Assembly: GCA_017505525.1 (NCBI GenBank)
Contig: JAFVPB010000011.1
Location: 1-64,000 of the forward strand
DNA: 64,000 bases
From: Clostridia bacterium
GTDB taxonomy: Bacteria; Bacillota; Clostridia; UMGS1883
Direction: 5' to 3'
Positions 23,398-26,502 of this stretch are shown piece by piece (the stretch's first letter is position 1; the number at the start of each line of letters is the position of its first letter). The translations under genes were made by a program, and so were the position numbers. Below the pieces are notes generated by a model. That model searched no databases, had not been told where the DNA came from, and saw only the letters and a program-made list of their open reading frames with translations.

Positions 23398-23741
23398 TTA
23401 TTACACCTCCTTATATATATACCCTTTAACAGGGCACTTTTACCTACTATATCATAACGATACCACCCTAGTATACATAAAGTTAGTATTTTTGTCAACA
23501 ATTATTTTTATTTACACGTTTTTTTTTAAATTTTTTGTTGAAATTTTCCACGGCATTTGTTATAATATAAGCTATAATACGGGTATAATGTGCACATAAA
23601 AAAACCAGTTGTTTTTTTATAACAATTTATTAACAGAAATTATGACCTGTTTTGTCGAATTTATAGGTTATTAACAGTGTTTTTAACAGCATTGTTAAAA
23701 ACTTTTTAAACTTTATTAACTAAACAAAGGAATGTTATTTT
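23398..23741. other. Origin-region DNA between rpmH and dnaA
   Basis: This very AT-rich 344-base gap lies where gene direction switches from minus to plus. It contains DnaA-box-like nonamers TTATTAACA at 23627-23635 and 23668-23676, TTTTTAACA at 23680-23688 and its inverse at 23693-23701, and TTATTAACT at 23713-23721. They match the standard TTATCCACA at seven of nine positions, with differences at positions 5 and 6. No box with the standard sequence was found. The region also has the dnaA promoter. It is the most probable oriC, together with the gap after dnaA. Confidence 0.75.
23538..23566 (+). promoter_or_regulatory. dnaA promoter
   Basis: TTGAAA (23538-23543), a 17-base spacer and TATAAT (23561-23566). 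The predicted transcript has a leader of about 170 bases that contains the DnaA-box-like nonamers, which would allow DnaA autoregulation. Confidence 0.7.
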
Positions 23742-25043
23742 ATGAACTCAGAATTAAATAAAATGTGGCAGGAATGTTTATCAATTCTTGAAAATGAGGT
23801 TTCATCTGTATCTTTTAACACCTGGATTAAAGATATTGTACCAATCAGTGCAGACGGTTTAACAATAACTCTTTCAGTTGAATCTTCAATTAAAAAGAAT
23901 ATGGTTGAAAAACTTTATGGTGATCTTTTAAAAAATACTATTCTTGAAATTACTGGAAAAGGTTACGACATAAATATAATTGTTGCCCAGGAAATTTTTA
24001 AAGAAGAAAAAAAACCTGAACCAAAAAGTTATTATTCAAAATATACTTTTGATAATTTCGTTGTTGGTAATTCAAACAGATTTGCCCAATCGGCAGCTTT
24101 GGCTGTAGCTGAAGCACCTTCTTATGCATATAATCCATTATTTCTTTATGGAGGAGTAGGACTTGGAAAAACCCATCTTATGCATGCTATAGGAAATTAC
24201 ATACTTCAGAATAATCCCGAGGCTAAAATACTTTTTTTAAGTGCAGAAAAATTTACAACTGAATTAATAGAAGCACTCCGTGATAATAAAACTCAGGAAT
24301 TCAGAAACAAATACAGAAATATTGATGTTTTACTTGTTGATGATATTCAGTTTATTGCAGGAAAAAGTGCAACAGAAGAAGAATTTTTCCACACCTTTAA
24401 CACTCTTCACGAAGCTAATAAACAGATTGTTCTTACAAGCGACCGTCCTCCTCGTGAAATAAAAACACTTGAAGAAAGACTTCGCTCACGTTTTGAATGG
24501 GGACTTATCTGTGATATTCAGCCACCCGATTTTGAAACACGTATGGCAATATTAAGTAAAAAAGCAAAAGATGAAAACATATCAATAAGTGATGAAATTA
24601 TAGAATATATTGCTCAAAATGTTAAATCAAATATTCGTGAACTTGAGGGAGTTTTCAACCGTGTTGTTGCTTACCGCGGTTTAATAAAAAAAGAAATAAC
24701 TCTTGATCTTGTTATTGAAACATTAAAAGATTATGGTGAAACAAGCTCTCGTTCTTTAACTCCCGAATATATAATTGAATATTGCGCTAATTTCTACAAT
24801 GTTAAAAAAGAAGATATTTATTCTGAAAAGCGTAATAAAGAAATTGTCTTTGCACGTCAGGTTTGCCTTTACATAATACGTGAATTAACAGACTACTCAT
24901 TAACTAAAATAGGACTTATATTTGGAAAAGATCATGCAACTGTTCTTTATGCTATAAAAAAACTTACTAATATAATGGAAAGCGATTTAAGCATAAAAAT
25001 AAGCATTGAAAGTCTTATGAAAGATATAAGCGATCAAAAGTAA
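23742..25043 (+). CDS. dnaA: Chromosomal replication initiator DnaA
   Basis: DnaA is the AAA+ initiator that melts oriC. The 433-residue protein has domain I (about 1-75), a short linker, the ATPase YNPLFLYGGVGLGKTHLMHAIGN, VLLVDDIQFIAGKSATEEEFFHTFN and LTSDRPPREIKTLEERLRSRFEWGL, and domain IV with helix-turn-helix. The DNA-reading motif, usually DHTTV, is D397-H-A-T-V here (Thr to Ala at 399), in LIFGKDHATVLYAIKKL. The change matches, and may explain, the non-standard box sequences on both sides of the gene. Confidence 0.97.
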   Translation: MNSELNKMWQECLSILENEVSSVSFNTWIKDIVPISADGLTITLSVESSIKKNMVEKLYGDLLKNTILEITGKGYDINIIVAQEIFKEEKKPEPKSYYSKYTFDNFVVGNSNRFAQSAALAVAEAPSYAYNPLFLYGGVGLGKTHLMHAIGNYILQNNPEAKILFLSAEKFTTELIEALRDNKTQEFRNKYRNIDVLLVDDIQFIAGKSATEEEFFHTFNTLHEANKQIVLTSDRPPREIKTLEERLRSRFEWGLICDIQPPDFETRMAILSKKAKDENISISDEIIEYIAQNVKSNIRELEGVFNRVVAYRGLIKKEITLDLVIETLKDYGETSSRSLTPEYIIEYCANFYNVKKEDIYSEKRNKEIVFARQVCLYIIRELTDYSLTKIGLIFGKDHATVLYAIKKLTNIMESDLSIKISIESLMKDISDQK

Positions 25044-25212
25044 TTAACATTTTATTGTTAATTAACAATTTTAAAAATAAGTTTTTAAAATTTTAAACAA
25101 TTTAATTAACAGTCATTATCACTATATATAAAGCCATTTATAAAGGATATTAACATATTTAACATTACTACTACTTATATAAATAATAATTATATTATTA
25201 TTATAAAAGAGA
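25044..25212. other. AT-rich origin DNA between dnaA and dnaN
   Basis: Nearly all A/T. It has TAATTAACA at 25041-25049, 25059-25067 and 25103-25111, the inverse at 25056-25064 (making the palindrome TTGTTAATTAACAA) and ATATTAACA at 25147-25155. The shared core TTAACA is the same as upstream of dnaA, so this is a likely second part of a bipartite origin or the unwinding region. Confidence 0.6.
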
Positions 25213-25224
25213 TTGGAGATTATT

Positions 25225-26322
25225 ATGAAATTTTATTGTGATTCAAAAAAATTATCAGAAGCTATTAATATTGTAAGTAAGGCAGTAAGCGTTAAGTCGC
25301 CGGTTGCTCATTTAGAAGGAATACTTTTAATTGCAAAAGGAGGAATATTAACTCTTATTTCAAATAATCTTGAAATTTCAATTAAAACATCCATCAGTTC
25401 TAATATAAGCGAAGAAGGAAGCATTGTATTAAACTGTAAGATGTTTTCAGATATTATAAGAAAACTTCCTGATGATGTTTGTGAAGTATCAGTTAATGAA
25501 AAAAATAATGTTACAATAAAATGTTTAAATGCAGATTATAAAATTGTTGGATTGAATGCAGAAGAATTTCCGCAGATGCCACAGGTAGAAATAAAAAATT
25601 CTATCACACTTTCAAGTAAGGTATTAAAAGAAATAATTTCAAAAACTCTTTTTGCAGTAAGCCTTGATAATGCAAGAAAAATTTTAACAGGTTCTCTTTA
25701 TGAAATAGAAGACGGAACTTTAACTGTTGCAGCAGTCGACGGATACAGGCTTGCACTAACAAAAAAAGAAGTTAATACAGACAGTGATTCTAAATTTATA
25801 ATTCCAGGAAAAACACAGGGTGAGCTTTTAAAAATTATAAGCGGAAATGAAGATGAAGATATTAAAATATCTTTCAGTGATAATTATGCTCTTATTGAGG
25901 GAGAGGGTGTGATATTTACATCACGTCTTATTGAGGGAGAATTTTTTGCCTACAGGAATACAATTCCTGCAGAATCAAAATATATTGTAAAAATTGATTG
26001 TTATAATTTCTTAAAAGCAATAGAACGTGTTGAACCAATTATTGATGAAGTAAGTAAAAACTGCGTAAAGTTCAGATTTGAAAACGGCAGAGTTAATATT
26101 AAGTGTGAAACTGTTTTAGGTGTTGTGAATGATGTTTGCGAATGTGAATATTATGGAGATGAAATTGAAATAGGATTTAACTATAAATATCTTCACGATG
26201 CAGTTTCAAGATGCGAGGGAGAAGAAATAGAATTAAAAATGAATTCTCCTTTTAATCCTCTTATAATTAATTCAGTTGATGATGATAAATCATTATTTAT
26301 GGTTTTACCTGTAAGAATATAA
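25225..26322 (+). CDS. dnaN: DNA polymerase III subunit beta (sliding clamp)
   Basis: DnaN forms the ring that tethers polymerase III to DNA. The 365-residue protein has the three-fold clamp architecture: MKFYCDSKKLSEAINIVSKAV at the N-terminus, domain 2 with TVAAVDGYRLALTKKEV, domain 3 and the conserved C-terminal pocket end LFMVLPVRI (VLPVR). I start at ATG 25225 behind a TTGGAGAT binding site; the TTG 12 bases earlier is part of that site. Confidence 0.97.
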   Translation: MKFYCDSKKLSEAINIVSKAVSVKSPVAHLEGILLIAKGGILTLISNNLEISIKTSISSNISEEGSIVLNCKMFSDIIRKLPDDVCEVSVNEKNNVTIKCLNADYKIVGLNAEEFPQMPQVEIKNSITLSSKVLKEIISKTLFAVSLDNARKILTGSLYEIEDGTLTVAAVDGYRLALTKKEVNTDSDSKFIIPGKTQGELLKIISGNEDEDIKISFSDNYALIEGEGVIFTSRLIEGEFFAYRNTIPAESKYIVKIDCYNFLKAIERVEPIIDEVSKNCVKFRFENGRVNIKCETVLGVVNDVCECEYYGDEIEIGFNYKYLHDAVSRCEGEEIELKMNSPFNPLIINSVDDDKSLFMVLPVRI

Positions 26323-26323
26323 A

Positions 26324-26383
26324 GATGATGGCAGTGCCATCATCTCGCAATTAAAGTTTTCTCAAGAAAACATTTAATTGCGA
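26324..26383. other. Two strong hairpins after dnaN
   Basis: GATGATGGC/GCCATCATC (26324-26344) has a 3-base loop and directly follows the dnaN stop. TCGCAATTAAA/TTTAATTGCGA with inner TTTTCT/AGAAAA follows (26345-26383). There is no long T-run. They may end or process the dnaN message. Confidence 0.6.
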
Positions 26384-26386
26384 AAA

Positions 26387-26502
26387 AAGGGCTTGCCTAC
26401 GCACCGCTCACCGCGGTAGCCCTTGTAAGGTGTTAAAATCGAGGTACACGCCCCCGATTTTAACAAATTTTACCATTAAGGGGAATCCCCTTAACAATCC
26501 CC
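26387..26502 (+). repeat. Structured intergenic repeat, copy A (dnaN-yaaA)
   Basis: About 100 bases, best conserved at 26405-26502, are repeated at 30049-30145. Predicted stems are AAGGGCT/AGCCCTT (26387-26393/26418-26424), GTTAAAATCG/CGATTTTAAC (26432-26441/26455-26464) and TTAAGGGG/CCCCTTAA (26476-26483/26487-26494). Several differences between the copies keep the pairing. Confidence 0.75.

Follow-up and report, generated by a model that had tools for sequence, protein, structure and literature searches.

A variant DnaA box with A at position 6 at the replication origin of an uncultured genus of Clostridia

Among the closest described systems is the classical DnaA box (TTATCCACA, consensus TTWTNCACA) in a bipartite oriC of the B. 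subtilis type with its basal unwinding system. The classical box carries C at position 6 (C6), whereas the boxes described here carry A (A6). Table 1 of PMC4285127 lists only C6 forms among the high-affinity nonamers, as well as a 12-mer for Thermotoga, and a study on C. difficile used TTWTNCACA as consensus (PMC7561715). Among the mollicutes, TTATTAACA has been predicted as DnaA box in Mycoplasma hominis, M. mobile, and M. arthritidis (PMC2751442), and TT(T/A)TCAACA is given as a mollicute motif (PMC3322544), while classical boxes are described upstream of dnaA in M. bovis (PMC4351888). One cyanobacterial origin is reported to carry one TTATCAACA (PMC4674748), and the boxes of Epsilonproteobacteria show a TTCAC core with T at position 5 (T5), which the authors link to residues 435, 438, and 439 of DnaA (PMC5043019). 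The locus presented here, from an uncultured clostridial genus, shows the usual rpmH-dnaA-dnaN order of a chromosomal origin and is an ordinary origin with a real box variant.

Layout of the origin and reality of its boxes

In the window, which is the whole 64-kb stretch of DNA that was analysed, rnpA and rpmH are followed by dnaA (23742..25043, + strand, 433 amino acids), dnaN (25225..26322, + strand, with the ATG at 25225), and recF/gyrB, with all names except DnaA taken from gene order and sequence. The product of the dnaA open reading frame belongs to the family NCBIfam TIGR00362, as judged from a score of 537.4 bits over residues 9-429 (cutoff 343.9), and the cumulative GC skew has its minimum, i.e., its turning point, at this gene. 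On the upstream side, TTATTAACA followed by G occurs at 23627..23635 (+) and again at 23668..23676 (+; box A, identified in the alignment with sister genera), box B (TTTTTAACA followed by G; 23680..23688, +) starts 12 bp past box A, and TTTTTAACA is found in inverted orientation at 23693..23701 (-). On the downstream side, a box-like TAATTAACA overlaps the dnaA stop codon (25041..25049, +), and the palindrome TTGTTAATTAACAA (25055..25068) consists of two overlapping inverted copies of TAATTAACA (25056-25064, -, and 25059-25067, +); this palindrome is kept across the genus as CTGTTAATTAACAG, and its version in the sister genus g4 is CTGTGGATTAACAT. A further TAATTAACA followed by G (25103..25111, +) precedes a tandem pair composed of ATATTAACA (25147..25155, +; its counterpart in locus L083 is TTATTAACA) and TATTTAACA (25156..25164, +), next to which lies the DnaA-trio-like repeat TACTACTACTTATA (25166..25179, +; 3'-GAT-5' on the other strand) and then AT-rich DNA until dnaN.

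Box clusters flank dnaA on both sides at the GC-skew minimum, as in bipartite firmicute origins, and the arrangement of a basal unwinding system, with tandem boxes 10-13 bp ahead of DnaA-trios, is likewise found: the spacing between the first tandem box (25147) and the trios (from 25166) is about 10 bp in the window, and the published spacings peak at 10-13 bp (PMC8287927). In all four genus loci that reach the dnaN side, TACTACTA-type trios come after a tandem pair of boxes, and repeats similar to TACTACTACTTATA occur in loci of g1, g2, g3, g5, and f3. As judged from the sequence, gene order, GC-skew minimum, and the tandem pair beside trio-like repeats identify the region as a bipartite oriC whose box has changed to approximately TTWTYAACA(G). 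DnaA would bind the TTWTYAACA sites as ordinary boxes through its domain IV, and the tandem pair and trios before dnaN would represent the place where it opens the duplex. A separate feature of the window is a GC-richer, inverted-repeat-like stretch at 26330-26500, between dnaN and an S4-domain gene in otherwise AT-rich surroundings, which is possibly a mobile repeat or a terminator.

The initial annotation had reported that TTATTAACA, TTTTTAACA, and TAATTAACA recur on both sides of dnaA, that the classical TTATCCACA is missing there, and that DnaA reads DHATV with Ala399; all of this is borne out. Ten TTAACA-type nonamers lie inside the two flanking gaps or at their margins. The pattern TWWTYAACA occurs four times in the upstream gap compared to 0.38 times in dinucleotide shuffles (a fraction of 0.0005 of 2000 shuffles reaches four) and four times in the downstream gap compared to 0.21 (0 of 2000 reach four), while 136 other, overlapping 340-bp windows of the stretch with a GC content of at most 0.30 contain it 0.05 times on average and once at most. 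Neither classical C6 boxes nor the TTCAC core of the epsilonproteobacterial type are present, since TTWTNCACA occurs in neither dnaA gap; TTATCCACA itself is absent from both and found only once in the window (36983), with 41 copies in the 2.4-Mb genome compared to 43 of the reversed-pattern control. The DHATV motif comprises residues 397-401 (24930..24944, +), equivalent to residues 433-437 of the E. coli protein, whose numbering is used below. The suggested genome-wide count revealed no excess of the nonamer across the genome (55 copies of TTATTAACA vs. 72 of the reversed control), so the box signal is a local one. Decamer counts are uninformative in this respect because both TTWTYAACAG (85 vs. 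14 reversed) and TTWTCCACAG (29 vs. 2 reversed, indicating that C6 decamers have not been purged) exceed the reversed control, which can be biased by codon usage.

Outside the origin, four TTWTYAACAG decamers occur within 97 bp (G000:C13:52491-52587, corresponding to L234:2992-3089) in an AT-rich gap of 736 bp that precedes a ptsI-like gene, where shuffles predict 0.03 and 0 of 2000 reach four. This looks like a putative DnaA-box cluster outside oriC, and it was not seen at the only homologue found in the family (L240).

The box in the genus, its sister genera, and the class

Five of the seven genomes of the genus yielded a dnaA gene (none was found in G002 and G005 at 1e-60), and the respective loci, among them L001 from goat rectum, L002 from roe deer colon, L003, and L083, encode DnaA proteins of 65-72% identity. 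Their gaps contain 28 A6 and no C6 boxes of the pattern TTWTNNACA, with L001 represented without most of its downstream gap, and 52 A6 and 5 C6 boxes if a looser pattern is applied. This conservation over five species is stronger evidence than the density in the window. The common form is TTWTYAACA, with A at position 6, mostly T or C at position 5, and often a following G. By sequence comparison, the box has changed from C to A at position 6 at the level of the genus.

The change can be followed site by site in the family, of which 17 of 21 genomes yielded dnaA. The sister genera g2, g4, and g5 have retained C6 boxes alongside A6 boxes in the same gaps. In an alignment of the 150 bp directly preceding dnaA, at the site homologous to box A at 23668, the sister genera mostly still carry TTTTCCACAG: C6 is found in both g5 loci, the single g4 locus, and five of eight g2 loci, whereas A6 is found in the other three g2 loci and all five of g1; the g3 locus shows neither a C6 nor an A6 box in this alignment. 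The next box is already A6 in most sister genera. The C6 boxes at homologous sites and their partial replacement in g2 indicate that the change was gradual on the DNA side, and a C-to-A drift that appears to be half-way in g2 would have run to completion in the genus.

Residues and boxes were further read at 223 dnaA loci, consisting of a set of 80 loci that includes L001-L003, the window plus L083, 19 additional loci of the order, and 122 of the class. The latter were taken from 153 matching genomes outside the order, of which 31 were left out, as were L082, L084, and L085 (duplicates of L001, L002, and L003) and L086-L092 (not dnaA); the truncated L014 was omitted from residue counts and tree, and genomes with fewer than two (or three) boxes from the tests so marked. 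Near-identical loci such as L011/L020 and L049-L051 were kept, so that plain counts are not independent. In 194 loci with Asp433 outside the genus, the variable base of TTATC-N-ACA is C in 375 cases, A in 174, T in 11, and G in 4, while a Markov model predicts 3.9 cases of A, so that A regularly occurs as the second base at this position in Clostridia and related bacteria. The density of A6 boxes in the gaps is 3.50 per kb, compared to 0.67 per kb for the reversed-pattern control, and shorter flanks gave the same survey result.

Box position 6 appears to covary with residue 433 of DnaA, and not with residue 435. With seven further loci beyond the 223 included and the wider pattern TTWTNNACA applied, Asp433 is accompanied by 889 C6 and 499 A6 boxes outside the five genus loci (194 loci, a ratio of 64:36, with hardly any G or T) and by 0 C6 and 28 A6 within them, His433 by 35 C6 and 6 A6 (10 loci), Asn433 by 13 C6 and 27 A6 (14 loci), Ser433 by 1 C6 and 15 A6 (2 loci), and Thr433 by 0 C6 and 18 A6 (3 loci). 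The median A6 share is 1.00 for Asn, Ser, or Thr433 (16 loci) vs. 0.35 for Asp433 (182 loci), with a p value of 1.5e-7 uncorrected for kinship. A tree of domain III (FastTree, starred branches) yielded six independent pairs for these three residues, with 3.2 changes in the same direction, 0 opposite, and 2.8 unchanged (median p 0.25), in a test of low power that predates the seven extra loci; His433 gave no trend (0.5 same and 0.6 opposite of 7 pairs), and the Asn433 group is mixed, with L191, L172, and L258 retaining C6. The tree-controlled result for residue 433 is suggestive only. On the same tree, the state of having only A6 boxes, seen in 12 of 190 loci, requires at least seven changes. 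Among the individual groups, L108-L111, which belong to family f3 within the order, exhibit the motif KHHTT, in which Asp433 is replaced by His, together with 22 C6 and 1 A6 boxes, and L208 and L210 (f27) and L259-L261 (f39) combine Thr or Ser433 with boxes of the form TTWT(G/A/C)AACA (1 C6 and 33 A6 in total). In the open-licence literature, no paper was found that treats position 6 as C or A or connects it with residue 433.

DnaA and the possible causes of the change

The DnaA of the genus has conserved Asp433, His434, Thr436, and Arg399, the last of which corresponds to the minor-groove contact of E. coli DnaA; in three loci of g3 and g5 (L093, L094, and L096), the equivalent Arg of the basic loop reads Gln (STSQK). 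Residue 435 is Ala in three and Ser in two of the five species, which share the same box type. Ahead of DHATV, the turn of the helix-turn-helix (HTH) reads FGK compared to FGGR/K in solved DnaA structures and is one residue shorter, leaving a gap against 1J1V and 8BTG. The fold is ordinary, as an AF2 model of domain IV (pLDDT 96) superposes with DNA-bound 1J1V and 3PVP at an rmsd of 1.0 Å.

The proposal of the initial annotation that protein and box changed together stands in so far as the box changed genus-wide and A6 boxes are common to all five species, but residue 435 of DHATV is probably not the partner on the protein side. On that proposal, loss of the Thr435 side chain (to Ala or Ser) removed a contact and selected TTATTAACA-type boxes. 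Thr435 reportedly confers sequence-specific binding, according to the title of a 1997 paper by Sutton and Kaguni. Ala435 loci overall contain 6 C6 and 27 A6 boxes, compared to 585 and 323 in Thr435 loci, the three Ala435 species of the genus mostly have T at position 5 while the Ser435 species L003 mostly has C, and variation of residue 435 is paired with T5 boxes in Epsilonproteobacteria (PMC5043019). However, three of the seven Ala435 loci belong to the genus itself, two members of which have Ser435, whereas L032 (2 C6, 1 A6) and L067 (4 C6, 6 A6) outside it combine Ala435 with C6 boxes, a combination that the initial annotation had itself named as speaking against its proposal. Origins containing only A6 boxes also occur with Thr435 (L145) or Ser435 (L042, L076, and L231), and five independent tree pairs for Ala435 gave 0.7 same, 0 opposite, and 4.3 without difference, albeit at low power. 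Ala435 as sole determinant was rejected because of Ser435 in the genus, the outside cases, and the tree pairs, and selection of the boxes via residue 435 in general is quite unlikely. The loss of one residue from the HTH turn (FGGR/KDH shortened to FGKDH), which might shift the recognition helix and re-specify the box, at first looked like the true partner, as it is present in all five DnaA proteins of the genus and absent from those of E. coli, B. subtilis, and Aquifex. It was dropped because the sister genera g2, g3, and g5 and family f3 have it as well, and C6 boxes are clearly in use in g2, g5, and f3; tree-controlled pairs are balanced (1.1 same, 0.9 opposite), and the deletion-bearing model superposes well as stated above, making this explanation very improbable. 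For H439Y, another candidate partner, the tree-controlled pairs (1.0 same, 1.6 opposite) gave no link.

A shift of DnaA preference to A6 by several interface residues acting together (435, 423, 439, and the basic loop), with the origin following, would be consistent with the large variation of domain IV interface residues within the family and with the lack of any C6 among 28 boxes. Yet no residue of the recognition helix is both constant in the genus and missing from the C6-using sisters, and such a shift is considered unlikely. That the nonamers arose by chance in AT-rich DNA, or serve a regulator other than DnaA, would fit the AT-richness of both gaps and the genome-wide counts of TTATTAACA, but is contradicted by the shuffles, the other AT-rich windows, the conservation in the genus, the homology to C6 sites, and the adjacency to the trios, and is regarded as extremely improbable.

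The preferred explanation, with an estimated probability of about 0.6, is that the boxes of the genus drifted from C6 to A6 inside a set that its DnaA is predicted to have tolerated already. Besides the conservation in five species, the homologous C6 sites, and the survey counts, the ordinary fold of domain IV, the GC-skew minimum at dnaA, and the four-decamer cluster outside oriC speak for this reading. Cytosine and adenine each expose an amino group on the major-groove side, so that an aspartate could accept either. Asp433, which the covariation suggests as the residue at base pair 6, may thus read both bases, and C6 boxes could have been replaced by A6 one by one with no required change of the protein; a literature search on which bases Asp433 contacts returned no paper. 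Base composition alone does not account for the change, as the A6 share does not track the GC content of dnaA (Spearman -0.05, p 0.54; 172 Asp433 loci with at least three boxes outside the genus). Counting against drift, the total absence of C6 from the 28 boxes of five species goes beyond what passive tolerance would give with the 64:36 mixture of the other Asp433 loci, so that preference may have shifted. In addition, C6 decamers persist genome-wide (the 29 TTWTCCACAG copies), and the looser pattern still yields 5 C6 boxes next to the 52 A6. Extended to the whole survey, the tentative picture, held at somewhat less than even odds, would be that residue 433 sets position 6 (Asp accepting C or A, His requiring C, Asn preferring A, and Ser or Thr taking A only), that origins with only A6 arose at least seven times among the surveyed loci, and that the genus got there while keeping Asp433, through changes within the range of boxes that its DnaA could already read.

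Comparison with known origins

Origin predictors search for TTATCCACA-like sites, and if A6 nonamers are full boxes in many Clostridia, both oriC prediction and box counts will need a wider consensus. The family also supplies paired natural variants, with the same site as C6 or A6 and with residue 433 or 435 changed, for studying the evolution of DnaA specificity. Compared to the classical box in the B. subtilis-type origin, the locus is alike in gene order, boxes flanking dnaA, a tandem pair about 10 bp before the trios, and box positions 4 and 7-9. The Epsilonproteobacteria likewise possess a lineage-wide box variant, as described in PMC5043019, but have kept C6 and changed position 5 instead. 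A phylum-level search, intended to add mollicute loci as a test of convergence, brought none that could be identified as such. The TTATTAACA-type boxes are already in print for mycoplasmas, and those described here are a real further variant: the mollicutes share the identical nonamer beside dnaA and the same rnpA-rpmH-dnaA-dnaN order (PMC2751442; PMC3322544), but they represent a distant lineage for which these sources predict the motif from one or two boxes, whereas the clostridial variant is supported by its conservation in five species and by a homologous C6 site in the sister genera.
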